Shown here: one piece after another, positions 1 to 15,583 of the stretch | Layout: every line of letters begins with the position of its first letter | Numbering within the stretch: position 1 is the stretch's first letter | The notes under the pieces: generated by a model | What the model saw: the letters and a program-made list of their open reading frames with translations, nothing else | What the model was told of the DNA's origin: nothing | Databases searched by the model: none | Made by a program: the position numbers and the translations under genes | Virus record (IMG/VR): IMGVR_UViG_3300044470_000050 | Coordinates: 1 to 20,542 of that record | Reading direction: 5' to 3' (one strand) | DNA length: 20,542 nucleotides | Source of the DNA: a virus

Positions 1-3000
1 TGGTGACGGGTTCGTATCGGTCTCGCGCCATAATAGAAGTGAAACATCGCTTATCTGAATGCCGCCTGCTGGAATGGTAATCTTCATTGCAGGAACCCCG
101 TTATAGTTACATGGTTGACCTTCCCACGTACTATACGCACCAGCGTTAAGCGCCCAATCTCCGTCGTGTGTAAAGTTATATGGGTCGCTATGCTGTGCCC
201 ATTTATTATACGACTGATGAGTAGTCGTGTTTCTTCCGACCCTCATTCCGGTATCTCTAGGGGTAACGCCCGGCGTATAACCGTCACAGGAGATAAAATC
301 ATTATCCGGCGTAACTTTAAACATTACGTACTCTCCGACTATATCGGGATTTTGTAGCTTTACGAGCGGGAGATAATAAGATGGAGAGTTAAGTGTCATT
401 TCACCCGGTGAGCTTCCCGCACCGCGCGGATAAAGCTGCGTTACGATTGGTGAATAGTCATATTGAACCGCTACGCCCGTCATATTCTTACCGAATGAGA
501 TAACCGGAGGTTGTGCTGTGTGATAGCCGCTTGGGTTATACTTACCGTTAAGAATCCATAAGTCCGCTAGATAATTGTTCGCGCATACCGCAGAAGAAAG
601 TCCCACATTATACTGTCTAAATACAGCTATCGAGGCGTATATGTTATTAGAAAGCGTATAGTCATTTCCGAGGTAAATATCGAACTCGTTAGTCTCACCG
701 AAATTACCCCACGATTGACCGTTATTAGATGAGTTAATTGTATAAAGACTGTAATCGCTTCCGCACGCGTAAATATTAAGATTTCCGACGTCTGACGCGA
801 TTATCGCCGTTGTGCCGTTTATAATACCGCCTAATGACGTCCAGCTAGCCCATAGACCAAGATTAAACCAAACTGCGTTATCAGTGCCGTGTACAGCTAA
901 CGCGATACTTCCGTCAGACGTCACACACGCCGATGGGCCGGTTCCTAACGGTAACATGCCGCCAGCAGTCGACGCAGCCCACGCGCTAAACGTAGAGCCG
1001 TCGGTTGTATTAGTCTGCCATGTTGTTCCATCGCTCCCTCGACCGAATACCGAAATAACACCACTAGCCGTTGTTACGGCCGCTGGCGCTGACGAGAGAG
1101 TTGCGCTAATCGAAGTCCACGCACCCCACGTTGAACCGCCGTTCGTGCTCGTGAGTTGCCAAAGGTTGTTATCGGTTCCCTGTATGAAAACATCGATTCT
1201 ATTTCCGTATTGACATACACTTGGCCCCGATGCTAGTTGTGCCCCTAAAGACGCCCACGCACCCCACGCGCCACTTGAATATGTAAGCCACCATAGGGCG
1301 TTATCACCGCCTCGCGCGAACACATGCATTGTGCCTACCGATGGTGCTACCGCTGCTGGTGAAGCTGAGATGTTACCCCCGCCGATGTTTTCGAAATTCA
1401 CTATGCCAGTGCCGGGGTCATACGTGTGGAAGATGCTACCGCTATTTGAGTCAACTATGAACACATCTTTTCTTCCACCACCCCACGAGCACGCCGCGGG
1501 GCCGGTTCCGCTCTTTATCCGCCAAGAGTCATACATCCACGACGACGCGGTACTACTCTGCACCTTCAAAAGCGTCTGCGCTACGCCATCGAGATAAACG
1601 GTCGGTGCGACCTGCGTATTATTAGACCATACGACTTGTAGATAGTACCATTTACCAATCTGTACCGAATTAATCGGGGTTCGATACGTCTCGGGACTGT
1701 TATTTATCGTATTTCTACTTACAACAAGATAATTATCGTCATTAAATACCCAAATACCCCAAAAACCATACTGCTGTCGCTTCGTCCATAGCATCCCGTT
1801 TGAGCTTTCCTTATTAAGCATAAACATCATTTCGGTTGTCGAACCGGCGAGGTTATCCGTCGCTGCGCCGTGAGGCACGTCGATGTAGTCGTTAGTGCCG
1901 TTAAACGTCCACTCGCCGTATGATTTCGCCGCTATAGCATATACAAGCTCGCCACCAGCCCATGGGGAGATACGCGCCATATGTGTAGCATCTCCGGCAT
2001 AGTAGAATCGCATAACGTGATTACCAAGCGGCGCCTTATACGTAATAGACCATTTACCTGTCGCGTCTGTTGTGGTCGTGGCGATAGTCTGCCAACCATT
2101 ACTCGACCCCCAATAGTCGGGCGTCGTTACCGTTGGGTCTTCTTGTAGTTCTATTACCGCGTTCGCGACAGGTGAAAAGTCTGTTGCCGTGCGAAGCACA
2201 CCAGAGAAGTTAAGCGGATTTGATTGCGAACCGAAACCGAAGCCAGCACCTAGGTTAAGCGTACAAATCTGCGTATCTTCTGCGGGTTCCCATAAGGCAC
2301 CAGACGGGGGATAATATTCCATTAATGAATTTGTAACAGACTCATAGCCCCACGACTGATATTGGTTCTCTACTAAATCGGCGCCCATCGACTCAGTGCC
2401 GTATGTCTGCGGGAACCATACAAGAAAAGAGGTCATCCCGACGTTATTCGCGTATGACCAATCAATAATATCCTTATACGTCGGACTAACGTCTTCCATC
2501 GAGTGCGTTTGCATCTCGTTAAAATTCGCACCAGCGTCAACTAGTAGGCCGTTTTTAATGCCCCTCGCGTGTGCGGCCTTAGTTCCGTCTTCGATATCTG
2601 GAACATTAATAAGCTCGTAACATTCCCAAGCGTTAAGAACGGTGCCGGTTTCTATGTAAATATCCTTCCAGAGTCCTACGGGGTAGTTGTAGTTAACATA
2701 ACCCTCAAAGTAATTCTCGGTTAACCACGTCGCGACGCCCTGTTGTCCTGCTTCTGAACATACGATTGTCCAACCAGCGTTTTTCATCATCTGGAAATAG
2801 GAGTCGTAGTTAGAAAGAATACCGCTGGTAGTGTCGATATCGACACCTTCGAGGTCGAGCCACGCCTGCATTCCGTAACTTTCTATTAAAGTTTTCTCTG
2901 CCGCGTAATTATTAGTAGAATCCATTGCTAAGAGAATACACGTATCGAATCCCCTATAAGCAAAGTATTGAATCTGTCCATCATTTATCGCCGAAGGTGG

Positions 3001-6000
3001 AAGACATACCTGATATGAAATATGTGGTAAACCGGCTTTTTGCGTAGTAGGGCGTCGTAGCTGTTCGTTCGATAGCGCCGCATAATCCTGTTGATACGCT
3101 AACCCGTTGTACTGTGCGCCGCCGTTACCTTCATTTAGAATGGCTAATCCAGTAGTTGGCCACATATCATAAATAATCGCCGCGTCTGCTGTGTCTGCAT
3201 CTACGCGCCATCTGTTTGCGTAATACTCACTTGATAGCGTTTGGTTATCGAGTGCTTTCGAATGGTATTTCATATACGAAAGCGTCATAGGGAGATTTTC
3301 GTATAGGTTCGCGTCGTTACCGATGAATATGTCATAACCAGCGTCAGAAGCCCAACTACCGCTACCGTGTGGTGTTGCGCGTGTCATCGATAAAGGTGTG
3401 CCGTTTATATACACAACCGGTCTAAAACCGACGCCCTGTGAGCACTCCCATACGACTTGTAAATATAACCAATAAAGATAAGGGATGCTGTTAGTAGCTG
3501 AATACCATACGTCACCAACACCGCCCGTCGTTTGTCGCCATATGGCTAGTCGTTTATTCCAAGAATCAACCGTTATCTCAAAACCGTCTTTAGAGAATAA
3601 ACAGCCATACTGGGCGTTTCCGCCGCCGTTAATTATAAGAATCGCTTGGAACGTAATATCCATAACGTCGTCTAGCGTATCACACGAGGCAATTTTAATG
3701 TTGTCCCCAACGCCGTTAAACTCCCACGCGGGGGCGCCGTTATTAAGAACCGTATAGCCATTAGTGTAGGTTAAACCGTTACCATCGGTTCCGGCAAGAC
3801 CTCCGTCGTTTGTAATACTATTTCCGATTGAGGGGAAGTTATCGTAGACGATAAGCGCGGCTTCTGTTACGTTTTCGGGCATATACGCGTTCTGAATCGC
3901 GGCGAAGGAAGAGGCAATAGTTAGAATACGTACCGAGGGATTCGACGGCGGTACGTAGACCCTTAAATAACCACCCGTTTGTTGAATTATCTTATCTACG
4001 CCCGTCTTTATCGTTTCCCAACTTAAATCAACGTCTAAAGGAATATCTAGCGCGGGGTCGATGTAAATTCCAGTAATCACCCCGTCATCTAGCGCTTCTT
4101 GACTAATATCGGCAACAACCTGTGAGGTTCGTCGTTGCGCGCTCGTGTACTCAAAAGAAATCTCGTATCTATTTAGGTACTCTTCGGGGCCATCGCACGT
4201 AACGAGTATATTATATCCCGAGCCAGTACCGAGTAATTGACCACCACTCCCCTGTACGCCGCCTATGTCGCCGTATCCCTCTACCTTTTGAAGTACGTAT
4301 GCTTGTTTAAACTGGTTATCTCGTCCATAGTGCCATACCTCGATGCCATTCGGCTCACCTTGAAATAGCGCGGATTTCGGGTCGTCGAGTTGAAGATTAA
4401 ACGTTAACGAATCGGGCATACCGATTTCTTGCTGAGTCTGTGGTGCTATGTTCTTATCTAGAACGCCGAGCAGGTTATAGGCATTTACGATTCCGATTTT
4501 ACCCCAACTACCCCAATTTGTGCTATCCTTAGATTGAATACCCCATAGCGCGGCGTCGTTTCCCCGACCATATACTGAGATTTCGTTCGCGGAATTTGAA
4601 ACCGCCGACGGCGAGGACGTAAGCATACCACCTAAGCACGACCAATTAGTCCACGTGCCGGATATGTCTGAGACCTGCCAATACGCCTGTTCGACGCCCA
4701 TTATAAATACATCGAATCGATTATTCGCACTCGATACGAGCGACGGTGCCGCGTTAGTGTAAAGTTGACCGCCTAACGTAGCCCACGCGTTCCAATCAAA
4801 GCCGGTGGTAGTCCATCTTAGCCAACACGCACCGTCGCTGCCGCGCACTGCGACAGCAACGCTCGAACCTCCGTACCACGTACAACCCGGGCCCGACGTT
4901 AGGCTTCCGCCTAATGACGACCACGCCGACCAACCTCCGCCGCCATTCTCAATATGCCATAAGGCGTTGTCTGTGCCTTTAATAAAAACATCAATTCTTC
5001 CGCTCGCCCACGCACACGCGGTAGGGCCGGTGTTTGGTGCTATTAGCGCACCTAAAGACGTCCAGTCCCCCCATGTAGTCCCGCCGTCGTTTGTTTGAAT
5101 ATGCCATACTGCTAAATCTGAACCCGACGCGAAAACATGAATAACATTAGTAGCAGTAGCGACGGCCGCGAGATTCGAGAATGTAATCCCCCCTAAATCA
5201 GTAGACGATTGCCACTGGTCGGCGTTTGAGAGATGAATAAGCGTTCTATCGGTTTCTTGAATAAATATATCCTCTCTACCATTACCCCATGAGCACGCTG
5301 CCGGAGATGAGCCGTCGTTTATGAGCCAGCCCGGCGCTTTCTGACGAACTTCTAACGTATATGGAACGGTTATCGGAATTGGTGAGGATGGTAAAAGAAT
5401 TCTATTAACGTCGACGCTTTCTTGAATCGAGAGCGTTATATATTCAGTTATTTTAACCGGTGCTTCGTTTAGTCCTACCTGACTTCGTTCAATTACGTCT
5501 AATCGAATAGTTTCAGTTGAGCCGATAGACGGAACGCGGGTAGTATCGGTAATAGAAAGATTAAGCGTCTCGGTGCTTGCTATACCAATCTTAGCTACTT
5601 GGTCGGTAACGGATAGATTAATTGTTTCGGAAGAGCATACATACGTAACAAAGCTTCCTACCGGCGAAGATATTTCTCTAAAGGAAAGTTGGATGGTCTC
5701 TGTTGAGGTAACGGTTGGGGATGGTGTTACGGTTGTCTGAGAGAACTCTTTTACTGAGAGTGCGATTATTTCCGTAGAAGGTGCTGTTGTGTGACTCGAC
5801 GTAGAATACGCCGAAGTTTCGTGAAACGAAAGAGGAATAGTTTCTAATGAATAGACATTAACCGACTGTCCGGTAATCTGTGTGGTATGTTGTTCTATAA
5901 TATTAAGTTTAATATTCTCAGCGTCGGTTATGTAGGTCTTAAGTGAGGTTGATTGCGTAAGCGAGAGATTAATCGTTTCGCTTGACGATTTATTAACGAC

Positions 6001-7446
6001 CGGAATACCCCACCGAACGCGGTCGGTCGCGTAATCGGTAGCCATTTGCGCTACCGTTTGATTCGTATTAAGCCACCGAATTATCGCTATGTCGGCGTCT
6101 AGGCCTTCGTTCCTACCGACACTTGTGTCCTGCTGACCGAATATGATAGACGAGCTACCGTCAAAGAGCCAATCACCTGTTCCGACCATACCATGCGTAA
6201 CGCTAACTTGTACGCCGTTTACGCAGATGATGGGTGGGGAATTAACGGAATCATACGGCAGCGACGCGGGGCCGCTTCCACATCGCCAGCTTATAGAGAC
6301 GTAGTTCCACGCGTTCTGTGTAATAACGCCGCTATTTGTACACCATACATCAGAGTTATTATCCGTAGTCGGTCGCGTGAGCCAAATAGCATTAGTAGTA
6401 TCTAAAAACGACTGAAACATCCTATCAAGAGAGGGTGGCGGCGTAAGCTTAGTAAAGAGCGCCGGATACATGCTATAATTAAATCCTCTATGATAGAATC
6501 CAATCTCGTAGGTAAACTTATCAATGTCATTAATTAGGTTATATTCACCAGAAGTAGTATTATAAATACAATCAGTTGAGTCGGAGAAGACCCACTGCGC
6601 GTAGCTGTTTAGTGGCGCGTAATCGTTATTTTCTCCGATTCCGGGATACGCCCCTGTAGAACCTGAATCCGGTATTACCGTTGTATTCGGCTGCCAGTTA
6701 GAATAAATAATCGACCCGCGAGGCAATGGGTCGTTACTTGCGTTATAGCGGTGAAGTCTATCCACATACCACATCCCATGGCTCGGGCCGGTAAAGTCTT
6801 GAACTGAATTATACTGTCTAAACGTATAAAGCCAGCCGGGGAAGCCCGGGGTGAGGGGCGACCAGCATAGGTAGTGAGGTACTCCGTTATCACCCGCCCA
6901 CGAACCCTTCGGGGTGCCAGTCGATACAATCGATACGGCTTGGCCCGTAGGTACTGCCCCATCAATGCCGAGGTAAACCGCCGGATATGAAAATGTGGTA
7001 GGTGTAGCGGCGTTCCACGCTATCTGTAGATAATAGTCGTGTTGTCCCGATGAGAGGTTAGCGATTGCAAAAGTTACCGCGCCGCCACCACTACTACTAG
7101 AAAAACATCGGGTAAGATTAAGCGTATTATTATATATATAAATCTGGAACGGCTCTGCTGCTCCAGTGCCGGTTTCTTCCGTCCAAAGTGCATATGGCCC
7201 ACTACTACTATTAAAGCTAAATCCAATCTCCCACGAGACTTGAGCAAGGTTACTCGCTGCAGTACCGCCGGGTAATGTTATCTCATCATTAGTACCAAAC
7301 GGCCCCCACGCGGTCGTACCGTTTGGTAGGGTATGAAAGTTAGTAGTAGTATTACCTAGAACTTGCGCGTAGTAACCATTGGATACTGCTACTTTATTCT
7401 GCCACGTCGAGGCGTTTATAGGTGTAAAATAGAGAATTTGAGACAC
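1..7446 (-). CDS. Giant tail-tip hub (Tal-like) protein with nested lectin, LamG and TIM-barrel modules; 3' end outside window
   Basis: The frame is open for 2482 codons from GTG at 7446 to the left edge, with no stop seen; an in-frame TAG just upstream rules out an earlier ATG, and GCGGAG lies about six bases before the GTG. Domains I read, in rough residues: LamG-like 1-250; LamG-like 257-480; nine STETI-type repeats 486-681; start of a tail-hub domain about 693; six-module PLL/DUF346-like propeller 705-982; hub continues 985-1175; LamG-like 1189-1415; TIM-barrel-like enzyme domain 1455-1715; Ig-like 1740-1826; LamG-like 1836-1975, resuming at 2250-2300, with a second six-module propeller between; hub resumes about 2313 with FGKN and VTQLYPRG. 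Known for the family: Tal/gpJ-type hubs close the tail tip and carry receptor-binding or degrading modules. Inferred: this is the adsorption apparatus. Hub assignment rests on motif resemblance and position after Dit; the substrate is unknown. Confidence 0.85.
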   Translation of the reverse strand, partial: MSQILYFTPINASTWQNKVAVSNGYYAQVLGNTTTNFHTLPNGTTAWGPFGTNDEITLPGGTAASNLAQVSWEIGFSFNSSSGPYALWTEETGTGAAEPFQIYIYNNTLNLTRCFSSSSGGGAVTFAIANLSSGQHDYYLQIAWNAATPTTFSYPAVYLGIDGAVPTGQAVSIVSTGTPKGSWAGDNGVPHYLCWSPLTPGFPGWLYTFRQYNSVQDFTGPSHGMWYVDRLHRYNASNDPLPRGSIIYSNWQPNTTVIPDSGSTGAYPGIGENNDYAPLNSYAQWVFSDSTDCIYNTTSGEYNLINDIDKFTYEIGFYHRGFNYSMYPALFTKLTPPPSLDRMFQSFLDTTNAIWLTRPTTDNNSDVWCTNSGVITQNAWNYVSISWRCGSGPASLPYDSVNSPPIICVNGVQVSVTHGMVGTGDWLFDGSSSIIFGQQDTSVGRNEGLDADIAIIRWLNTNQTVAQMATDYATDRVRWGIPVVNKSSSETINLSLTQSTSLKTYITDAENIKLNIIEQHTTQITGQSVNVYSLETIPLSFHETSAYSTSSHTTAPSTEIIALSVKEFSQTTVTPSPTVTSTETIQLSFREISSPVGSFVTYVCSSETINLSVTDQVAKIGIASTETLNLSITDTTRVPSIGSTETIRLDVIERSQVGLNEAPVKITEYITLSIQESVDVNRILLPSSPIPITVPYTLEVRQKAPGWLINDGSSPAACSWGNGREDIFIQETDRTLIHLSNADQWQSSTDLGGITFSNLAAVATATNVIHVFASGSDLAVWHIQTNDGGTTWGDWTSLGALIAPNTGPTACAWASGRIDVFIKGTDNALWHIENGGGGWSAWSSLGGSLTSGPGCTWYGGSSVAVAVRGSDGACWLRWTTTGFDWNAWATLGGQLYTNAAPSLVSSANNRFDVFIMGVEQAYWQVSDISGTWTNWSCLGGMLTSSPSAVSNSANEISVYGRGNDAALWGIQSKDSTNWGSWGKIGIVNAYNLLGVLDKNIAPQTQQEIGMPDSLTFNLQLDDPKSALFQGEPNGIEVWHYGRDNQFKQAYVLQKVEGYGDIGGVQGSGGQLLGTGSGYNILVTCDGPEEYLNRYEISFEYTSAQRRTSQVVADISQEALDDGVITGIYIDPALDIPLDVDLSWETIKTGVDKIIQQTGGYLRVYVPPSNPSVRILTIASSFAAIQNAYMPENVTEAALIVYDNFPSIGNSITNDGGLAGTDGNGLTYTNGYTVLNNGAPAWEFNGVGDNIKIASCDTLDDVMDITFQAILIINGGGNAQYGCLFSKDGFEITVDSWNKRLAIWRQTTGGVGDVWYSATNSIPYLYWLYLQVVWECSQGVGFRPVVYINGTPLSMTRATPHGSGSWASDAGYDIFIGNDANLYENLPMTLSYMKYHSKALDNQTLSSEYYANRWRVDADTADAAIIYDMWPTTGLAILNEGNGGAQYNGLAYQQDYAALSNEQLRRPTTQKAGLPHISYQVCLPPSAINDGQIQYFAYRGFDTCILLAMDSTNNYAAEKTLIESYGMQAWLDLEGVDIDTTSGILSNYDSYFQMMKNAGWTIVCSEAGQQGVATWLTENYFEGYVNYNYPVGLWKDIYIETGTVLNAWECYELINVPDIEDGTKAAHARGIKNGLLVDAGANFNEMQTHSMEDVSPTYKDIIDWSYANNVGMTSFLVWFPQTYGTESMGADLVENQYQSWGYESVTNSLMEYYPPSGALWEPAEDTQICTLNLGAGFGFGSQSNPLNFSGVLRTATDFSPVANAVIELQEDPTVTTPDYWGSSNGWQTIATTTTDATGKWSITYKAPLGNHVMRFYYAGDATHMARISPWAGGELVYAIAAKSYGEWTFNGTNDYIDVPHGAATDNLAGSTTEMMFMLNKESSNGMLWTKRQQYGFWGIWVFNDDNYLVVSRNTINNSPETYRTPINSVQIGKWYYLQVVWSNNTQVAPTVYLDGVAQTLLKVQSSTASSWMYDSWRIKSGTGPAACSWGGGRKDVFIVDSNSGSIFHTYDPGTGIVNFENIGGGNISASPAAVAPSVGTMHVFARGGDNALWWLTYSSGAWGAWASLGAQLASGPSVCQYGNRIDVFIQGTDNNLWQLTSTNGGSTWGAWTSISATLSSAPAAVTTASGVISVFGRGSDGTTWQTNTTDGSTFSAWAASTAGGMLPLGTGPSACVTSDGSIALAVHGTDNAVWFNLGLWASWTSLGGIINGTTAIIASDVGNLNIYACGSDYSLYTINSSNNGQSWGNFGETNEFDIYLGNDYTLSNNIYASIAVFRQYNVGLSSAVCANNYLADLWILNGKYNPSGYHTAQPPVISFGKNMTGVAVQYDYSPIVTQLYPRGAGSSPGEMTLNSPSYYLPLVKLQNPDIVGEYVMFKVTPDNDFISCDGYTPGVTPRDTGMRVGRNTTTHQSYNKWAQHSDPYNFTHDGDWALNAGAYSTWEGQPCNYNGVPAMKITIPAGGIQISDVSLLLWRETDTNPSP
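697..1521 (-). other. Second PLL/DUF346-like beta-propeller, inserted in a LamG domain
   Basis: Six modules of about 46 residues, each with a D-V-F-x-x-G-x-D-N-A-x-W core and a W-x-x-W-x-S-L-G end (for example VFARGGDNALWW and GAWASLGA). It begins with the signature PAACSWGGGRKDVFI, nearly the same as the first propeller. The flanking sequences SSWMYDSW and EFDIYLGND are adjacent strands in the uninterrupted LamG at residues 1189-1415 (GSWASDAGYDIFIGND), so the propeller appears to be an insertion. Related lectins (Photorhabdus PLL family) bind fucosylated or O-methylated sugars; the ligand here is unknown. Confidence 0.7.
2290..3090 (-). other. TIM-barrel-like enzyme domain in the tail-tip protein
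   Basis: Residues about 1455-1715 of the giant protein alternate hydrophobic strands and helices in the manner of a (beta/alpha)8 barrel: FDTCILLAMD, MQAWLDLEGVDID (E near 1533), WTIVCSEAG (E near 1565), LNAWECYEL, NGLLVDAGANF and SFLVWFPQ. Acidic residues sit at several strand ends, as in retaining or inverting glycosidases, but I do not recognise the family and cannot assign the catalytic pair. Its place between LamG domains in a tail-tip protein suggests a depolymerase of a host surface polymer. It could also be an inactive binding barrel. Confidence 0.5.
4492..5335 (-). other. First PLL/DUF346-like beta-propeller in the tail-tip protein
   Basis: Six modules of about 46 residues with the repeated core D-V-F-x-x-G-x-D-N-A-L-W-H and end W-x-x-W-x-S-L-G-G (for example IDVFIKGTDNALWHIE, GGWSAWSSLGG). 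It opens with PAACSWGNGREDIFI. On its left is VPYTLEVR and on its right NLLGVLDKN; joined, they look like the first beta-hairpin of a tail-hub domain. Six sequence modules are visible; PLL-type lectins are usually seven-bladed, so a seventh blade may be divergent or formed by the ends. Confidence 0.7.
5404..5991 (-). repeat. Nine-copy STETI-type protein repeat in the tail-tip gene
   Basis: Residues about 486-681 contain nine copies of a short motif, S-[TS]-E-T-I-x-L-S-[VFI]-x-[ED], separated by 8-13 variable, Thr/Ser/Pro-rich residues. Examples: SSETINLSLTQ, STETIQLSFRE, SSETINLSVTD, STETLNLSITD, STETIRLDVIE. The period is about 19-25 residues, irregular in length. DNA copies are diverged, so this is an old repeat rather than a recent slippage product. 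It most likely forms a beta-strand stalk between the N-terminal LamG domains and the hub. I do not recognise a named family. Confidence 0.75.
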
Positions 7447-7508
7447 GCTACGCTCCGCTAGGTAAGCTAACTAAAGAGAGGCGTATGAGGCGCATATGCC
7501 GCGCTCCC

Positions 7509-7913
7509 TTACGCTGAAGCTATGACTATTGTTTTAGTAAGAACAACTGATTCGTTGCTCGTCTTCGTGATGAGGTTTTCCTGTGCTCGAGTGAGCATAC
7601 AGTTCGGTGCCGAGCCGTTAAACGATGCCGCACCAGAGGCGTTAAATACACCATTCTCGTACCACGTAAATACCGCATCCGCAGCCGCAAAGGTCGCAAC
7701 GAAAACCATAGAGTTAGCCGTTACCGTTACAGAATCGCATTGCTTCCAGAGTTTATTAGAACCTGATGCTTGTAGTGTGTGCTGACTTGAGCTAAAGGCC
7801 GTTTGCCCGTCGCCTACTGCTAGATATGAATTAGCAGCGCTAAATCCGTTCCAATTTCCATCATCCGCGATTAATGAGGCAATCGCGTTTAATCCGTCGT
7901 TGGTTACTCCCAT
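7509..7913 (-). CDS. Small tail structural protein of a widespread virion family (134 aa)
   Basis: ATG at 7913 follows CTAGGAGAAAATGAA, a clear ribosome binding site. The pattern N-x-F-x-x-A-N-S-Y-L-A-V-G-D-G-Q-T-A-F near residues 24-40, the K-L-W-K-Q-C-D-S-V-T-V segment and W-Y-E-N-G-V-F-N-A-S-G near 83-93 match a small phage tail protein family recurring in siphovirus tail-tip clusters (the 'NEWGVFNA' type). The C-terminal half is strand-rich. It lies between Dit and the giant hub gene, so a role in the tip or as a fibre base is likely; no enzymatic residues are evident. Function is inferred from family resemblance and position only. Confidence 0.75.
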   Translation of the reverse strand: MGVTNDGLNAIASLIADDGNWNGFSAANSYLAVGDGQTAFSSSQHTLQASGSNKLWKQCDSVTVTANSMVFVATFAAADAVFTWYENGVFNASGAASFNGSAPNCMLTRAQENLITKTSNESVVLTKTIVIASA

Positions 7914-7924
7914 TTCATTTTCTC

Positions 7925-8068
7925 CTAGATGTAGTTCTCTCTCTTTCGTTCGATTATTCTCTTTTCACACGTAGGCCAGTAGAGCCCACCCGCCCAAAAG
8001 AGAAAGGGGCGGGTTATCTCTAGCTTATCTATTTCTATTATTTTTAATCTAAGTTTATTCTCTTCCAT
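7925..8068 (-). CDS. Possible 47-aa ORF between Dit and the 134-aa gene
   Basis: ATG at 8068 lies nine bases after the Dit stop (TAA), with AAAGG as a ribosome binding site seven bases upstream, and the frame runs to TAG at 7925, twelve bases before the next gene's ATG. It fills the gap almost exactly. The product begins MEENKLRLKIIEIDKLEI, has a short hydrophobic centre (PFLFWAGGLYWP) with one Cys, and a basic end (KRIIERKREN). It matches no family I know. A perfect 8-bp hairpin lies inside the coding sequence, so the stretch could instead be a structured intergenic RNA. Confidence 0.55.
   Translation of the reverse strand: MEENKLRLKIIEIDKLEITRPFLFWAGGLYWPTCEKRIIERKRENYI
7988..8014 (-). promoter_or_regulatory. 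Strong 8-bp hairpin inside the small ORF
   Basis: ACCCGCCC and GGGCGGGT form a perfect 8-bp, mostly G:C stem with an 11-base pyrimidine-rich loop on the minus-strand transcript. No T-run follows on the minus strand, so a standard intrinsic terminator is not supported. It lies 75 bases upstream of the 134-aa gene start and may affect mRNA processing or set expression of the tip genes relative to Dit. Confidence 0.5.
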
Positions 8069-8077
8069 TTCGTACCT

Positions 8078-8878
8078 TTACTGTTGTCCAATTAACCATC
8101 TATCGCGCCATCTCGTTTCTAAGGTTCCCGAGCTTGGCCCACTAAACATAATATCATTATCACCGGGATTTAGGTGCGGCCATCCCGGCGCGGTTATCGT
8201 AGCCGTCGCGGGGTCGCCGTTTAAGAGCGCCGTCATAGGCACGCCGTATTCATCCATAATTAAATCGAGAATATCTCCACTACCTAAACTCCCATACCAG
8301 CTAATCGTCTCTCCCGTTGTGGTATTCATCCATGAGACATTACCGATATACGGGTTCGTTGAGACGTACCGCCATCGCGGCGATGCTTTAACGTCACCAT
8401 TAGATGTAAGTTTAAACTCCGTTGCGTCTTCTAATACGTTCGAAGAAACCACTGATTCGCTAATTGAATATGCGGGGCCGCTGCACGCAAAGTCAACTTC
8501 CATCTCAGAGATATACGGAGAAACATCTTCCTTTGATACGTTTGATTTTTGACGTAACGCCATAAAATAAGAATTCGGATACTCGTCGAATATTAGCTTC
8601 TGTTGGCCGTTAAGCGGATTAATTAACTGTGCTAACGCCGTTCTACTTGCTAGCATCGTCGAACGTTTATAATCTGGTGCGATGATTCTAAGCTCTAGAC
8701 TAATAAGCCAATCCTTTAAAATCGGTAATGTTGGGATAAGAGACGTCTGCCCTACCGGAAATTGGTCGAACGTAAAGCCATCTAACCACCACATCTTCGC
8801 GGCGATTGTCATATACGCATTATACGGTGATTGCGTTATGTCGTGTCCAGCGTAGGTAAATTTCGTTGCGTCGGTCAT
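8078..8878 (-). CDS. Distal tail protein (Dit-like)
   Basis: 266 aa, close to the usual Dit length of about 250-300. It directly follows the tape measure gene (one base apart) and precedes the tip genes, the classical siphovirus position. Dit hexamers join the tail tube to the baseplate hub. Visible features are an N-terminal strand-rich half with paired LISLELRIIAP and MEVDFACSGPAYS strands, typical of the Dit tube-like domain in which the target strand ends '...F.C..P..Y', and a C-terminal galectin-like half (residues 150-266) with PRWRYVS, DILDLIMDEYGVPM and a final PGDNDIMFSG strand. That final motif, just before the C-terminus, is common in Dit proteins ('..pG.N.i.fsg'). Start ATG at 8878. 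Confident on role from order plus motifs. Confidence 0.85.
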   Translation of the reverse strand: MTDATKFTYAGHDITQSPYNAYMTIAAKMWWLDGFTFDQFPVGQTSLIPTLPILKDWLISLELRIIAPDYKRSTMLASRTALAQLINPLNGQQKLIFDEYPNSYFMALRQKSNVSKEDVSPYISEMEVDFACSGPAYSISESVVSSNVLEDATEFKLTSNGDVKASPRWRYVSTNPYIGNVSWMNTTTGETISWYGSLGSGDILDLIMDEYGVPMTALLNGDPATATITAPGWPHLNPGDNDIMFSGPSSGTLETRWRDRWLIGQQ

Positions 8879-8879
8879 C

Positions 8880-11800
8880 TTAACCCCTCGCGTGTCCTAT
8901 TCTTCGGTTCATATCGTTAGTTCTACGGCTTAATTTTCGGCTAATGACGTCCGCTAGTTTATCCATATCATTCGCGTTACCTATCTGCGGGTTGTTTATC
9001 TGAATCGCGCCGCTATGAAGATGAACGCTTGAATCAATACTACTACTACCAACTGAACCGCCGGTGTGTAGTGGTGCGAGCGACCCACCACTTACAACTG
9101 CACCCTCTGCTAATTGTGGTAAGCTATTTATGTCGGTTCCTAGCTTATGTTTTGGTATAATATATTCCTCTTCTCCGGCTTCTCCAACAACTACGTGAAC
9201 ACCCCCCGTTCGTGGCGCGACTGCTGCACCTTCGGCGAGGTTAAACGAAACCGTTTGATTGATAACCGGAATAGTAAACGAAATCTTTGTGTTACTAAAC
9301 GCGTTCGCTAAATTACCTGCGCCGTTTTCGATAGCGCTTATAATAGCGTTAATGAAATTACTACCAATTTGCCCCCAATCTATGCTCGTAAATGCGTTAA
9401 GCACATCACCGACGATTGCTTGTATGCCGGATAAGATGTTTTGCCCTATCTGCCCCCAATTCTGTGTCGTTACCGCAGTCCACAGCTCACCCGGAATTGG
9501 TGTAAGTAAGCCCCATATCCACGTCCCTAACGTAGCCAGCGCGGTAGTGAATCCACTCCATAATTCGCCGGGAATCCCCTGTAGAAGACCCCACACCCAC
9601 GTACCTAATTGTCCTAAAGCGCTCTCTATCGCTGTCCATAGCTGATTCGCGATGCTACCCCAATCTAATGTAACTAAATAATTAAGAATCGCGAGCCCTA
9701 ACGCTTCGGCTATTTTCGGGAATATTAAGGCTAGCGCGACAGCGAGACCGCCTAACGCACCGACGAGTTTTGTTAGAACCGTTGGCGCTGCTTGTGTCGC
9801 GCCATCTACGAGGGACTTATTCATTCCGGTAGAAACCGACGTCGTAGCCGACTTGCCCCCTCCGCCGCCTCCGCCGCCGAATAAACCGGTAATTGCTTTT
9901 ACAAGCCCGTCTATAACGCTATTCCAATCAATGCCGTTTAAGAAGTTTGTTATTGTATCTGCGATGTTAGATAAACTCGAAAGACCATTTAAGATGAAAC
10001 TACCGATATTGCCAACACTTTCTTTTATCGCGACAATCATCTGCGCAGCCCAACCACCGAAATCGAAATGCTCTAGTGAATCGAGCGCACCCTGTAATCC
10101 ACTCTTTAAGTCATCGCCGAACTTAGAGAAGTTTCCACTTGTTAAGTCGCCGACAAGCTGACCAACCCATCCAACGATGCTTTCGATGGTATTAAGCACA
10201 CCACCGAGCATACTTCTAAACGTACCCGACGTAGCGGTAAGCGTCGCGAAGATGCCTATTACCGGTAGCAGCGCCCAACCGACAACGGGAACCGCAGCGG
10301 CAATACCGGTGACACTACCAAGTAGGCCACCACCACCGGCAGCGGCACCAGCACCGGCGATACCTTCGCCTATTCCGCCTACGCCGCCGAGTATTCCAGC
10401 TAACGGCCCGGGTAAAGCGCCAATTATACTACTAAATATGCCACCACTACCCGCTGCGGCCTCGACCCCTTCCGCGACGTCACCCGTTCCACCTGCTAGC
10501 TCGCCTACGTTACCGCTCGCGTCTTGAATTAATCCGTCGAACTTAGAACCCTCATTCGACATATTCTCAATTTCGCTAGTCGAGCCTTTCGCGTTTTGAG
10601 TAAGTTTATCGAAACAAGCAGGGTCAACGGGGCATTTCTTACTCGCACCGGCGTTTTCCATTTCGCTTGCTGCACCGGCCGCTTTACCGCTACTACCCCC
10701 GCCTAAACCGACCATTCCCTTAAGTTTAGTAGCTATATCATCAAGACCGGCACCCTTTAGACTAGTGATACTTTTAATAACGTTACCAATATCGATGTTA
10801 AACATCTTAAGCGCAAGACCAGCGGCGGCTACACCACCGGCAATTAACCCAATGGCTAACATTCCCGCTTGTATCGGCATAGGTAGCGCCGCGAAGCCTT
10901 TTGCTAATAAACCGATAAAATCGATTACCGGTGTTAATTCGGTAATGAAGTTTTTAAGAATTGTAAGAATAGAAGTACCAAGCGGTGCAAATGCTTCCGT
11001 TAATTTATTTTTAAGCTCCGTTAGCGACTCCCCAAACGTCTCATTTGCTGTTCCCGCTTTTTGAGTCGCCCCTGCGCTATTCTGAAGTGAGTCTATGAAA
11101 CCCTGATTAGTAATTGTTCCCGACTTCGCCGCTGCGGTGAAGTTATCTACATTCTTACCGAGAAGCTTTAACTCGTCTGTACTATAGTTACCGGTCTGGG
11201 CGTCTTTTAAGAGGTTATTCCAAAAAGTTGTCTGACTCTCTCCGGCCTTTTGTGCGGCGGGTGCGATTCCCTGTAATATAGAGGTTAACTGTCGCGCTGG
11301 TATCCCGGCCTGCGTAAATCCAGAAAGTGCCGCTACTTGTGCAGGAATAGACATACCCATCGCAGTCATCGACGCGGTAGCTTTATCGAACGCGGGACCC
11401 CAATCTTGAATTCCTTTTCCGGTCTTCTGAAAGGCGACCGTTGACATATCGGATAGCTGAGTCGTCGTTATAAGTGGCTCGTGCATTGCAGCAAGCCCTT
11501 TATTCGCGCCGATTAACCCGGATGTGAAGGCGTCGGTATCGCTCGCAGCGTCTGTTTTGGTAGCAATACCATACTCAATAATGTTCTGTGTAGCGTCTGT
11601 TAACGCTTGACCCTGCAAGCCTAACGCATTATTTACTTTATCTACAACCGTAGCAACGGTGCTCGCTGATGCCGGAACATTAGCATATACCTGATTCCAC
11701 GTACCTTCTAACGCTTGAAGCTGAGTACCCTGCAAGCCCGTAGCTTTCGCCATCTGACTATACGCATCCTCTACCGTCGAACCGGCCTTCAACGCGAAGC

Positions 11801-12218
11801 CAATAACGGCAACGGTGGCAAGGCCTATACCAGCCGCGCCTAACGTACCCGCGCTTGAAAGAGCACTACCGAGACCACCGGCTTCGGTGCTCGCGTCAGC
11901 CATTCCAGCTTTTGCGTCGTTAGCGGCCGATTCTGTGTCCTTTAAACCACCAGAGGCAGCGGTAGCGCCAACCCCCGCGCTTTCTAATCCGGTTCCTAAC
12001 TCCGTCGACGACGTAGCGGCGTCATCCATTCCCGACGATAAACCCGCTGTAGAGGCTTCTGCTTCACCGGCACCAGCAGCGAAACCTGCGGAACTAGCAC
12101 CGGCAGCATCCATCTCACCACCGAACGCTTCAGTAGACTCGCTACCTTCAGCTAGAGCGGCCTTTAAGCCGTCTGCATTTCCGGTGATAAGAACCATTAA
12201 TTCGCCGAGACTTGGCAT
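8880..12218 (-). CDS. Tape measure protein (1112 aa)
   Basis: Sets tail length and occupies the tail lumen. The N-terminal 120 residues are Ala/Gly/Ser/Glu-rich, followed by hydrophobic stretches at about 128-146, 443-472, 630-662 and 813-850. A TP901-like core spans about 150-420. A Gly8 run at 781-788 and W-rich repeats (DWGSIANQLWTAI, NWGQIGQNILSGI, DWGQIGSNFINAI; also two copies of LGT-W-x-WGLL-x-x-IPGELW) occupy 763-965. The C-terminus has VVVGEAGEEEYIIPKHKL near 1009-1026, a hallmark of tape measures. A CPVDPAC motif at 529-535 is odd. At about 1.5 angstrom per residue the tail would be near 165 nm. ATG at 12218 follows GAGAGG. Upstream are the tail chaperone and H1-like genes; Dit follows by one base. 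Confidence 0.95.
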   Translation of the reverse strand: MPSLGELMVLITGNADGLKAALAEGSESTEAFGGEMDAAGASSAGFAAGAGEAEASTAGLSSGMDDAATSSTELGTGLESAGVGATAASGGLKDTESAANDAKAGMADASTEAGGLGSALSSAGTLGAAGIGLATVAVIGFALKAGSTVEDAYSQMAKATGLQGTQLQALEGTWNQVYANVPASASTVATVVDKVNNALGLQGQALTDATQNIIEYGIATKTDAASDTDAFTSGLIGANKGLAAMHEPLITTTQLSDMSTVAFQKTGKGIQDWGPAFDKATASMTAMGMSIPAQVAALSGFTQAGIPARQLTSILQGIAPAAQKAGESQTTFWNNLLKDAQTGNYSTDELKLLGKNVDNFTAAAKSGTITNQGFIDSLQNSAGATQKAGTANETFGESLTELKNKLTEAFAPLGTSILTILKNFITELTPVIDFIGLLAKGFAALPMPIQAGMLAIGLIAGGVAAAGLALKMFNIDIGNVIKSITSLKGAGLDDIATKLKGMVGLGGGSSGKAAGAASEMENAGASKKCPVDPACFDKLTQNAKGSTSEIENMSNEGSKFDGLIQDASGNVGELAGGTGDVAEGVEAAAGSGGIFSSIIGALPGPLAGILGGVGGIGEGIAGAGAAAGGGGLLGSVTGIAAAVPVVGWALLPVIGIFATLTATSGTFRSMLGGVLNTIESIVGWVGQLVGDLTSGNFSKFGDDLKSGLQGALDSLEHFDFGGWAAQMIVAIKESVGNIGSFILNGLSSLSNIADTITNFLNGIDWNSVIDGLVKAITGLFGGGGGGGGKSATTSVSTGMNKSLVDGATQAAPTVLTKLVGALGGLAVALALIFPKIAEALGLAILNYLVTLDWGSIANQLWTAIESALGQLGTWVWGLLQGIPGELWSGFTTALATLGTWIWGLLTPIPGELWTAVTTQNWGQIGQNILSGIQAIVGDVLNAFTSIDWGQIGSNFINAIISAIENGAGNLANAFSNTKISFTIPVINQTVSFNLAEGAAVAPRTGGVHVVVGEAGEEEYIIPKHKLGTDINSLPQLAEGAVVSGGSLAPLHTGGSVGSSSIDSSVHLHSGAIQINNPQIGNANDMDKLADVISRKLSRRTNDMNRRIGHARG

Positions 12219-13136: not shown

Positions 13137-13585
13137 TTTTTTGGGTCTATTCGCTCTCCCGAATCTGTTTCTTTACCACTTACGGCAATAGCCCGTACTC
13201 TCATATTTTTAACGTCGGCTGCTGCATCGCCTTCGAACCAATCTTCCATTATAAGACTCGCGGCCTCGATTACTTTAGGTAGAATCTTAAAGAATTTCTC
13301 GTGCTCAAGAATATCGCCAGCTATGTTAGCCGTTATGCCGGGGAATTGATGCCGAAGTCCTTCAGCGAGAAGAATTCTTAAATCGTCGGTAGTTATCGTC
13401 GAAGGATTAGTCATTAGCAGCATCATACTCGCGCCGCCGGATTTCTTTAGTTGTCTATCCGCTATAGCGATTTGATTATAGCTAAATTTTAGATAAATCG
13501 GGTCGTCTTTTGGTAGGTCTAGAAACTGTCGTTCTTTGTCGATTTCTATCTCAACAAAGCCACTCATCGGGTTCTGTAAGGTCAT
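13133..13585 (-). CDS. Tail assembly chaperone, short form (gpG-like)
   Basis: 150 aa from ATG at 13585 to TAG at 13133. Residues 10-50 contain FVEIEIDKERQFLDLP and YLKFSYNQIAIADRQL, a strand followed by a helix that begins as in chaperones of HK97/GTA type; the middle (TTDDLRILLAEGLRHQFPGIT, residues 65-86) resembles the 'lr.lL..gLr' part of such proteins. The C-terminus ends on a -1 slippery sequence. In known phages many copies of this form coat the tape measure together with a few of the long form. A GGGAG motif lies 13 bases before the ATG, rather far. A hairpin with a T-tract precedes the gene, so it may be regulated apart from the tube gene. Confidence 0.8.
   Translation of the reverse strand: MTLQNPMSGFVEIEIDKERQFLDLPKDDPIYLKFSYNQIAIADRQLKKSGGASMMLLMTNPSTITTDDLRILLAEGLRHQFPGITANIAGDILEHEKFFKILPKVIEAASLIMEDWFEGDAAADVKNMRVRAIAVSGKETDSGERIDPKN
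13136..13142 (-). promoter_or_regulatory. Programmed -1 ribosomal frameshift site (A_AAA_AAC)
   Basis: On the minus strand the upstream frame reads CCA AAA AAC TAG, so A_AAA_AAC fits the X_XXY_YYZ rule exactly and is followed at once by the zero-frame stop. Slipping back one base gives CTA GAG TTC and enters the open frame that continues to 12615; the distance to 13040 is 96 bases, confirming the same frame. This position, at the end of the gene before the tape measure, is where tail chaperone frameshifts are conserved. Confidence 0.85.
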
Positions 13586-13608
13586 TTTAAGTTTTTTTCT
13601 CCCATTTT

Positions 13609-13657
13609 AAAAAAATTCATCGTTACTCATCGAGACTTATCTAAGTCACTCGTAACG
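13609..13657 (-). terminator. Candidate hairpin plus T-tract before the tail chaperone gene
   Basis: In the gap after the 133-aa gene, the minus-strand transcript can pair CGTTAC with GTAACG and, inside, GACTT with AAGTC around an AGAT loop, with unpaired bases between the two stems. Seven T residues follow five bases after the outer stem. This resembles a weak intrinsic terminator or attenuator that would reduce transcription from the abundant tube genes into the chaperone and tape measure genes. The bulges make it uncertain. Confidence 0.4.
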
Positions 13658-13671
13658 ACTTCGTAATTTAT

Positions 13672-14073
13672 TTACTCGGGCATTGGCGAGAACGGATACG
13701 GTAGCTGGAAGACTGAAATCTTCGGGCTTCCCGTTACGTCACCGGAATACGTTATGAGCGCAGTACCAGTAAACCATTCAACCGGGAATGGGCCGAGCAT
13801 CCGGCCTAAACTTGGGCCAATATTAGCGACAACATCGTGGTCGAAGCCGTGGTCACACGCACTCTGGTCGTTTATCGTCACGATAAGCGCCCCTGACGAG
13901 ACGCCGTTCGTGATATAGATAAACTCGTGACCTGTGTTCGGAAAACTATCTCCTACACTCGCGCCGGTATGGCACGCGTTTGATAGCGTAGGCGCAAGCC
14001 CTATAGTCGTTGGGTCTGATTTCCACGTAGTGTTTATCGCCTGTACTGTGTTAGTGGTGTAAGTTACAGTCAC
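13672..14073 (-). CDS. Small virion protein with NTG-x-E / GPFPVxW motif (133 aa)
   Basis: Starts at GTG 14073 with AGGTGGTG seven bases upstream, just after the tail tube gene. It is strand-rich: residues 44-58 contain FPNTGHEFIYITNG, then ALIVTINDQSACDHGFDHD, a GRMLGPFPVEWF segment at about 88-102, and a final ALITYSG...ISVFQL strand pair. Small beta-sandwich proteins with this layout (polar NTG strand, 'GPFP' turn, closing strands) recur in phage structural operons and are usually thought to be decoration or minor tail proteins. The C-terminal domain of the 837-aa protein (17065-16859) has the same motif order, suggesting a shared fold. The exact virion location is unknown. Confidence 0.65.
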   Translation of the reverse strand: MTVTYTTNTVQAINTTWKSDPTTIGLAPTLSNACHTGASVGDSFPNTGHEFIYITNGVSSGALIVTINDQSACDHGFDHDVVANIGPSLGRMLGPFPVEWFTGTALITYSGDVTGSPKISVFQLPYPFSPMPE

Positions 14074-14090
14074 GTTTTTTCACCACCTGA

Positions 14091-14597
14091 CTATGTTCCC
14101 GTGTCTGTTGCGAGGTCGATTGAACCGCTGCCGGTAAAGGTAATCGTCATCTTACCCATCTTAGCGTCGTCCATCTGATAATCGACTTTAAACGCTACGA
14201 GGCCGACCATATGTGCCTGTGTGCTCGGGGTAACGCCCTGTATATCCTCTTGAATTCTCCACCCAATTCTTACTATTGGCCCGGGTGCGCCACCAATAGG
14301 TGCAGCCTGACCGACTGAAAGAATAACGTTTCGAACCATCTGTTGACCTGCGTCGTCGTCGAGGAAGTCGGTATCGAAACTGCCGTTCCACTTGTATCGA
14401 GTTGGGTAATAAACAATTGCGTCACTGTCTTTTGTTGTATAATCCTCGAGTTGTGGGTCTATTGTCCACTTACCGGACAACTCACCTCCAACTATCGTCC
14501 ACGACGGGATTCCGGTATTGGAACCGCTCGTGTCGATGAAGAACCTAGTAAAGCGCCCGTTTAAGAACCCAGACGCAGTACTCTTACTAATTGCCAT
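14091..14597 (-). CDS. Major tail tube protein
   Basis: 168 aa, within the range of siphovirus tube proteins, from ATG at 14597 with AGGAGA nine bases upstream, the strongest ribosome site in this stretch and fitting a highly expressed protein. The sequence is beta-rich throughout: FLNGRFTRFFID, WTIVGGELSGKWTIDPQLED, RYKWNGSFDTDF, IVRIGWRIQED, and a closing AFKVDYQMDDAKMGKMTITFTGSG. That last region, where a strand ends in 'K...tf.g.G', is typical of tail tube monomers. It lies after the tail terminator genes and before the chaperone and tape measure, the classical order. Monomers would stack as hexameric rings around the tape measure. No C-terminal Ig-like decoration domain is present. Confidence 0.8.
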   Translation of the reverse strand: MAISKSTASGFLNGRFTRFFIDTSGSNTGIPSWTIVGGELSGKWTIDPQLEDYTTKDSDAIVYYPTRYKWNGSFDTDFLDDDAGQQMVRNVILSVGQAAPIGGAPGPIVRIGWRIQEDIQGVTPSTQAHMVGLVAFKVDYQMDDAKMGKMTITFTGSGSIDLATDTGT

Positions 14598-14615
14598 AAT
14601 ATCTTCTCCTAAATT

Positions 14616-15080
14616 TTATTTTTTGACTGCGCGTGTGACGGTAAGGCATAACGTCACGTAGCGCGAGCCGCCTTCGCTATGTTCAGTATGTCGTGAAAAA
14701 GTGATTTTAACGCGTTTAGAGCCCACGTTATGCTCGCCGTTTATGACGCCGAGAACTCGCTGAGAGAATCCTCTCGCGCGCCCTAAACTTCCATAGCCTT
14801 TTTCTACGAAACAATGAATCTTAATTTCGGTGTTTGCTATGTCGTCAAACGATAGCCCACACTCGCCGAAAGTATCACCTATTTCTACATAAGGAAACTT
14901 AGGTTCTTTCGGGTTAACTATGATATTAACACTTGTTAATTGGTCACAGAGGACTTTTGCTAATTCGCGCACCGTATTAGCGCGCTCTTTAGACCGCTTC
15001 TCTGCTGGTAATGTCTCGATACTTGCCTTTTCCTTAACCGAGAACGTTACCTTTTCTTTTGCTTCTGATTTTTCTTCCAT
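14616..15080 (-). CDS. Tail terminator/completion-like protein (154 aa)
   Basis: ATG at 15080 with GAGGT five bases upstream. The first 35 residues are charged and lysine/glutamate-rich and look disordered. After that comes VRELAKVLCDQLTSVNIIV, PYVEIGDTFGE, EIKIHCFVEKGYGSLGRARG, VLGVINGE and a closing SRYVTLCLTVTRAVKK strand. This helix, PYV strand, strand with 'I.cfv', helix, closing strand order matches the tail terminator fold of the DUF3168 protein encoded just upstream. Two adjacent proteins of this type would be unusual; the second may be a tail completion or neck-tail adaptor protein. The assignment rests on secondary-structure pattern only. Confidence 0.5.
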   Translation of the reverse strand: MEEKSEAKEKVTFSVKEKASIETLPAEKRSKERANTVRELAKVLCDQLTSVNIIVNPKEPKFPYVEIGDTFGECGLSFDDIANTEIKIHCFVEKGYGSLGRARGFSQRVLGVINGEHNVGSKRVKITFSRHTEHSEGGSRYVTLCLTVTRAVKK

Positions 15081-15091
15081 TATAACCTCGA

Positions 15092-15583
15092 TTAACTTAC
15101 TTGTACGACCTGCACGTTACACGTGAGAACGTCGTGTTCTGCTTCTTTCGCACCCCAAACGCTCACGTCTTCGCCGCGCACGCCTATCTCAAATACACCC
15201 ACCATAAACGGACTCTCTTCGGGAAACTGAAGTGTCGGTGGGACACTCGCCCACGCACTCGAGAGCGCAAAGATAACATCGTTCATAAGTTCGGAAACTT
15301 GTTTCTTACCGCCGTAGTGTGTGAAGCAGTCTATTTCAACGAGATAATTATCAATGAACAAATCTTTCGTTTGTTTTTCTTTATCGATGTTAATTGCCGC
15401 CTTACCTATCGCCACGTAGGGTCTCTTTGCCTCGGGCGGTACGGTATCAAAAATTCTAGCTTTTACGTCGTTACCGTGCTCATCTTCGTATTCTGTTTCG
15501 GTAAGCGTTGGGTCGCTTGTAAGCACGTTATATAATAATAACCGTAACTCGTATCCAGCGTGGCGTTTAATTAGAATACTCAT
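15092..15583 (-). CDS. Tail terminator/completion protein, DUF3168-like
   Basis: 163 aa. The ATG at 15583 overlaps the stop of the gp10-like gene in an ATGA, implying translational coupling. The family pattern is clear: an N-terminal helix (GYELRLLLYNVLTSDPTL), a RIFDTVPPEAKRPYVAIGKA segment where the PYV strand follows a Pro-rich turn, FIDNYLVEIDCFTHYGGKKQ, a helix (VSELMNDVIFAL) and a final HDVLTCNVQVVQV strand. Tail terminators of this fold cap the tail tube as a hexamer and attach it to the head. The position after head closure and gp10-like genes and before the tube gene agrees. Confidence 0.8.
   Translation of the reverse strand: MSILIKRHAGYELRLLLYNVLTSDPTLTETEYEDEHGNDVKARIFDTVPPEAKRPYVAIGKAAINIDKEKQTKDLFIDNYLVEIDCFTHYGGKKQVSELMNDVIFALSSAWASVPPTLQFPEESPFMVGVFEIGVRGEDVSVWGAKEAEHDVLTCNVQVVQVS

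Follow-up and report, generated by a model that had tools for sequence, protein, structure and literature searches.

The window, which is the whole analysed stretch of a 20.5 kb virus record (20,542 nt), carries a tail module with all of its genes on one strand. The module codes for a head-tail adaptor, a neck protein, a tail terminator, a tape measure protein, the distal tail protein Dit, the product of a small ORF and the giant protein P0001. The tape measure gene (8880-12218, minus strand) was assigned by its match to phrog_991 (E 2e-24), and the Dit gene (8078-8878, minus strand) by its match to phrog_33 (E 2e-21); the Dit of the window is 52% identical to that of its relative L001. The small ORF in the gap between the Dit and hub genes (7509-7913, minus strand) corresponds to phrog_23653. 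The gene for the tail hub protein P0001 occupies positions 1-7446 of the minus strand, on which all parts of P0001 described below also lie. It starts with GTG and codes for 2482 aa, its 3′ end being missing. The start is at the same place as in the homologue L001, which is complete (3045 aa). When the gene position typical of Prophage_tail proteins was tested, P0001 was found directly after Dit in the tail module, in the order tape measure, Dit, small ORF, hub, which is the Tal slot. P0001 is not an evolved Dit itself, because Dit is encoded by a separate gene in the window. The Dit proteins of contigs L108 (9684-11117), L110 (8145-9581) and L113 (10001-11437) have about 477 aa and are longer than that of the window (266 aa). 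In L122, a very large evolved Dit of 1881 aa that contains several Ig domains (Big_3_5; 4296-9941) lies directly upstream of the split hub gene. Between its neck and adaptor genes, the window also codes for an 837-aa protein (16859-19372, minus strand) with no significant Pfam match. Downstream of the hub, L120 and L121 carry a gene for a papain-family (C1) cysteine peptidase (13235-15229 in both), into which an intein bearing an HNH motif is inserted. The papain-family peptidase of L001 (16310-17344) is free of an intein.

P0001 contains a single Tal/gp27-type hub in two pieces, residues 989-1184 and 2312-2360, with a giant insert between them, as had been proposed in a preliminary description of the window. 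The hub motifs quoted there were all located in the translation: NLLGVLDK at residue 991, MPDSLT at 1010, IASSFAA at 1177, ISFGKN at 2316 and LYPRG at 2338. Hub piece 1 (3895-4482) is 70% identical to its counterpart in L001. Hub piece 2 (367-513), which extends from PPVISFGKN to LYPRG, gave a weak match to PF06605 and was aligned by hhalign to the Tal profile with an E value of 3e-7. The insert, estimated before at about 1140 residues, measures ~1,127 residues (1185-2311). According to the same description, the FGKN/LYPRG part normally follows the first hub part closely in Tal-type hubs; the ordinary Tals examined are contiguous through all three sites at which P0001 is interrupted. The idea of one polypeptide with a Tal-type hub and a giant multi-domain insert was upheld, but the description recognised one interruption instead of three. 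It missed that the first propeller also lies inside the hub (site 1) and that a further insert comes after LYPRG (site 3). Strand 1 of the hub (ITVPYTLEVRQ, residues 692-703, 5338-5373) stands apart from hub piece 1 in the window and is contiguous with it in L119-L122, e.g., DYVLEVRKKDGKNWDLVGVLEN.

The relatives L119-L122 were reached via a Dit search followed by a search with a three-row hub alignment; hub piece 1 as the first query had revealed one relative in viral contigs and none in genome contigs. L001 has the same order of parts as the window, with hub pieces 70-71% identical, and it supplies the 3′ hub end that is absent from the window (YGMIEGTY...LYDLN...LGTNVLV), located after an interruption of ~340 residues. 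With the Pfam family Prophage_tail (PF06605, cutoff 31.3 bits), L001 scored 54.7 bits and L120 ORF B 55.7 bits, and the 3′-incomplete window copy scored 16 bits. The hub pieces of the window, L001, L119/L115 and L120 were then joined by script and aligned to a profile built from 30 ordinary Tals, which resulted in alignments over 361 columns with E values of 7e-22 to 1e-22. Hub piece 1 by itself showed a weak link to the Tal profile (E 0.003). In the right order, however, it added 12 bits to the score, i.e., 165.4 vs. 152.5 ± 1.3 for shuffled or reversed columns (maximum 159.9), for which the average gain in the Tal-profile score was zero. Wrong orders of the hub pieces scored 34-44 bits below the correct one. 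As L001, 70% identical in the hub piece, shows the same order together with the missing 3′ hub end, the sequence comparison indicates that the split hub is not a product of chance.

The structure of hub piece 1 of L119 was predicted with AF2 from six sequences (pLDDT 72). The model contains strands 8-15 and 18-25 and matches approximately residues 1-181 of solved hubs. It was superimposed on 80alpha Tal (6v8i, residues 2-181 of 387) with a Z score of 11.7 over 174 residues and on Listeria gp18 (3gs9) with a Z score of 9.0. The top Foldseek matches were hubs as well, the best with an E value of 3.7e-6. In this model, the N-terminal half has a gp27-like fold. The model of L120 ORF B is of low confidence (mean pLDDT 57.6); it matched phage hubs with Z scores of 6.8-9.4, which overlap the middling range, with rows for CBM and Eph domains interleaved. 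At the sequence level, the homology of this half to the Tal hubs is strong. The ranges covered by L119 hub piece 1 and by the low-confidence L120 ORF B model abut in 9m7n (phage NF5 Tal; 3-182 and 181-372), 9j1k (1-179 and 179-326), 8v3w (1-183 and 181-313), 1wru (Mu gp44; 3-180 and 179-341) and 9h4p (HFTV1, an archaeal virus; 20-205 and 203-346). In all five chains the two half-ranges meet within three residues. Judged by the alignments and the predicted structures, the hub pieces follow each other in the right order and complement one another.

The N-terminal region of P0001 begins with LamG-like module A (residues 1-232, 6751-7446), which resembles other LamG copies in the window and L001 and has no Pfam match of its own. 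It is followed by LamG-like module B (residues 233-490, 5977-6750), aligned to an L119 LamG with an E value of 3e-11, and by repeats of the type ETInLSvtE (residues 491-690, 5377-5976) that were read in the sequence and correspond to the same stretch in L001 at 35%. Site 1 is the first hub hairpin, between hub strands 1 and 2. In the window it is interrupted by PLL-like lectin propeller 1 (residues 704-988, 4483-5337), composed of six repeats; the same hairpin is uninterrupted in L119, L120, L121 and L122. A phmmer search related propeller 1 to PLL2 (6rfz) with an E value of 3e-72. Propeller 2 (residues 1975-2255, 682-1524) also has six repeats and was matched by phmmer to PHL/PLL lectins. For all eight solved PLL/PHL members listed, the E value was 2e-45 or lower, the above 3e-72 being the best. 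The propellers are, on sequence homology, related to PLL-family lectins. We call them PLL-like and not family members, because each consists of six repeats, not of the seven blades characteristic of the family. Among 50,697 phage records, none matched propeller 1. Each PLL-like propeller of L001 holds another repeat-like module of ~250 residues, missing in the window; this second, propeller-like module gave no Pfam match and no convincing PDB match. Residues ~375-590 of the 837-aa window protein mentioned above read like it.

Site 2, the seam between the hub halves, carries cargo at residues 1185-2311 (514-3894). The first part of it is LamG module C (residues 1190-1416, 3199-3879), 48% identical between the window and L001. 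LamG module D comes next and is divided into three parts. The first (residues 1417-1459, 3070-3198) is contiguous with the second in L001 and L119 ORF B; the second (residues 1840-1974, 1525-1929) aligns to residues 87-221 of L119 ORF B, and the third (residues 2256-2303, 538-681) to the same ORF from residue 224 onward. Between the first two parts, the window contains a TIM-barrel-like module (residues 1460-1735, 2242-3069) and an Ig-like module (residues 1736-1836, 1939-2241), a pair that is missing from L001. Between the last two, propeller 2 is inserted in both the window and L001 and is missing from L119 ORF B, where the alignment passes from 221 to 224. The earlier view of a LamG holding a propeller has to be corrected in that the TIM-Ig pair and propeller 2 are both nested in LamG D. 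The presence of LamG in the insert was corroborated by the L001 and L119 copies, which reach PF13385 (Laminin_G_3) with 36.9 bits (L001 module C) and 34.3 bits at a cutoff of 27.6. The window copies were assigned only by homology. For the Ig-like domain, Pfam gave weak support (CarboxypepD_reg, 8e-5; Big_3_5, 4e-4), and the TIM-Ig pair recurs in the methanogen protein L123. A TIM fold of the preceding module is plausible. This module showed no Pfam or PDB match, and zero matches in 50,697 phage records and in viral contigs; D1531, E1533, E1565 and E1608 are conserved in its methanogen relatives. The identity between the window and L001 is 35-48% in the cargo vs. 70-71% in the hub pieces, which is as expected if the frame is fixed and the binding parts change fast.

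The third interruption starts at residue 2361 and is cut by the contig end at residue 2482 (1-366). Site 3 comprises ~340 residues where ordinary Tals carry a short loop (alignment A8). The region ~103-320 of the low-confidence L120 model resembles CBM15 (Z 8.6), so the site 3 domain may be described as CBM-like, the model being too weak for a finer assignment. The region is present in every relative reaching that far and missing from ordinary Tals; for each of the other interruptions, at least one close relative lacks it.

A search of 393 genomes of one phylum located the TIM module in seven of them, which are all of the searched genomes that belong to one methanogen class (0 of the 386 others), and no match was found in 400 genomes of another phylum. 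The class is that of the MAG titled 'Methanomicrobia archaeon isolate SPRUCE'. The methanogen proteins (L123-L134) form a family with 1-5 matches per genome, in which the TIM-like part, itself without a Pfam or PDB match, is combined with Ig, a PLL-like propeller or a C-terminal anchor. Most of the cellular proteins begin with signal-peptide-like segments. TIM is joined with Ig in L123, L124 and L131 and with a PLL-like propeller in L126, L127 and L132; a further combination is TIM with a C-terminal hydrophobic anchor. The cargo looks host-type and adhesive, because the TIM module was found, among the genomes searched, in this methanogen class alone and occurs in proteins with signal-peptide-like segments, several of them with PLL-like propellers or Ig. 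Since the virus and the cells use the same module set, a methanogen of that class is the likely host. The window probably comes from a virus of a peat-bog methane-making archaeon. Between the DNA of the window and the seven methanogen genomes, all matches were short and, as we read them, did not exceed chance, and no CRISPR spacer or DNA-level host link was found. A search with hub piece 1 in Halobacteriota and a capsid protein search in eight genomes gave nothing useful. The TnpB of the L001 virus had Methanosarcina/Methanomicrobia among its mixed matches. TnpB-type transposase-like genes lie on the virus contigs L006 (8397-9521, minus strand) and L117 (10189-11289, minus strand); for that of L006, the closest copies include those of Methanosarcina and Methanomicrobia (61-68%).

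In the relatives, the seam of site 2 coincides with a gene boundary. In L120 and L121, the gene with hub piece 1 ends at the seam and the next gene starts at GKN...LYPRG with an ATGA overlap, without cargo. The first hub gene of L122 ends, cargo-free, at the same point, where the contig also stops. In L119, cargo is present on both sides of the boundary: a LamG ends the first gene, and repeats and a LamG start the second. A frameshift as the cause of the L119 split was rejected, because ORF B has its own repeats and its own complete LamG start, as well as a GAGGTGG site 7 nt upstream of its GTG. The preliminary description had the binding cargo growing from a hub loop. The cargo is indeed inside the hub chain, but its insertion point is a gene boundary in close relatives, and growth from a loop is one among several possible histories. 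A history in which the loop insertion came first, with later gene splitting in or at the insert in some lines and loss of the cargo in L120-L122, has, in our estimation, a little less than an even chance. It agrees with the single-chain state of ordinary Tals and with the evolved Dits, in which loops of tail-tip proteins acquire binding modules (PMC9692632). A tree built on the sequence from GKN to the end, with Tal outgroups included, places L001, a single-chain hub, outside L119 + L120 (support 0.67/69), which weakly supports the same order of events; this history would, however, require L120-L122 to have lost their entire cargo and to have been cut precisely at the seam. In the other history, which we hold to be somewhat less likely, the hub would have been split at the seam, the new chain ends (the C-terminus of the first chain and the N-terminus of the second, as in L119) would have gained modules, and the genes of the window and L001 would have been fused, trapping the cargo, so that the 'insert' would be two terminal extensions and not a loop insertion. 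In its favour are the two bare hub genes of L120 and L121, the L122 gene ending at the same point and L119, with a LamG at the end of the first gene and repeats and a LamG at the start of the second; in the window and L001, the counterparts of these modules, LamG C and LamG D, follow one another in a single chain. The position of L001 in the tree slightly favours a single later split instead, although the root is weak. We regard it as possible, with the balance somewhat against it, that the window gene is such a re-fused split hub and that, in this group of probable methanogen viruses, the seam is an evolvable place, left closed in some hubs, divided between two genes in others or filled with modules; entire TIM, Ig and PLL-like lectin modules of host surface proteins would then have been captured there, and the virus tip would display adhesive or glycan-processing parts of the host itself.

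We consider it quite probable that P0001 is a siphovirus Tal/gp27-type hub, probably of a methanogenic archaeon, with sugar-binding modules at three places, some of them nested, and probably exchanged with host surface proteins. Of the three loaded places, the first beta-hairpin holds a PLL-like propeller, the seam where the hub halves join holds LamG C and LamG D with TIM-Ig and the second propeller, and the loop after LYPRG holds a CBM-like domain. The hub pieces would fold together into a trimer of the ordinary Tal type that closes the tube of the tail beneath Dit, and the modules would hang outside as a multivalent adhesin projecting from three points per chain. Such a trimer would show six PLL-like propellers and the LamG modules, and could bind host envelope glycans multivalently. 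The TIM module, with its four conserved acidic positions, may trim or cut glycan. The modules were probably exchanged with surface proteins of the host, which combine the same parts. It is unlikely that they are mainly structural spacers, decoration or tail-tip enzymes, with adhesion due to other tail proteins such as those of the large ORFs downstream. That module binding is inferred and that other LamG-like proteins come after the hub in L001 and L119 would agree with this; PLL lectins and LamG are, however, binding folds, and the cargo varies much faster than the hub. An assembly artefact joining unrelated genes is very improbable, for although every sequence comes from metagenomic contigs, L001 independently has the same architecture (34-51% identity over its length), and L120 and L121, from different metagenomes, have the same split. 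With P0001 read as a loaded hub, the binding parts lie within the hub chain, one inside another like Russian dolls, whereas fibres or terminal extensions are usually held responsible for host range in tailed viruses. As there are relatives without most of the layers, one can trace step by step how a receptor-binding apparatus was put together. The shared modules tie these viruses to a group of methanogens from peat and provide a testable hypothesis for how archaeal viruses of this kind attach.

P0001 shares the order of hub pieces, the tail-gene position, the predicted fold of the N-terminal half and, going by a low-confidence model, perhaps that of the C-terminal half with the ordinary Tal/Prophage_tail hubs (PF06605), such as 80alpha Tal (6v8i), Listeria gp18 (3gs9) and phiEf11 Tal. 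Unlike P0001, those examined are contiguous through sites 1-3, and the known CBMs in Tals sit before or after the hub domain, at the N-terminus and C-terminus (Vinitor162, PMC8540738). Both predicted halves also match the baseplate hub gp44 of the archaeal siphovirus HFTV1 (9h4p), for which a sugar-binding domain was proposed. This domain is C-terminal and, in the passages of PMC12494034 consulted, a split gene, PLL propellers and nested inserts are not described. Hub domains with inserts (HDII-insertion, plug, FNIII) are known from lambda and T5, as are hub domains divided between genes, two in the case of lambda (PMC10721106), and in this they are like P0001. The inserted Ig-like domain of lambda gpJ has, however, ~144 residues (72-215), compared with ~1,100 residues of nested lectin-like modules in P0001, and the lambda division is at a different domain boundary (HDI in gpL) than the seam in the relatives of P0001. 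The evolved Dits with a CBM insertion (C41431, BK5-T; PMC9692632) share the principle that a ring protein of the tail tip carries a sugar-binding module in one of its loops; they are a different protein with a single CBM, no nesting and no gene split. With the PLL/PHL lectins of Photorhabdus (5c9o, 5mxe, 6rfz), whose ligands (fucose, O-methylated sugars or galactose) are held between the blades by Trp stacking (PMC5584973, PMC6943638), most repeats of the window share the blade sequence and the paired Trp pattern, the homology being one of sequence. The window propellers differ from them in having six repeats, not seven, and in being embedded in a viral hub. In the open-access literature we found no Tal/gp27 hub described as having PLL propellers, or cargo this large, within the hub fold. 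Relative to the known precedents, P0001 and its relatives are new in how large and how nested the cargo is, in having PLL-like propellers and in a seam that is loaded or cut, which suggests a route for tail tips to acquire cell-binding parts without a tail fibre.
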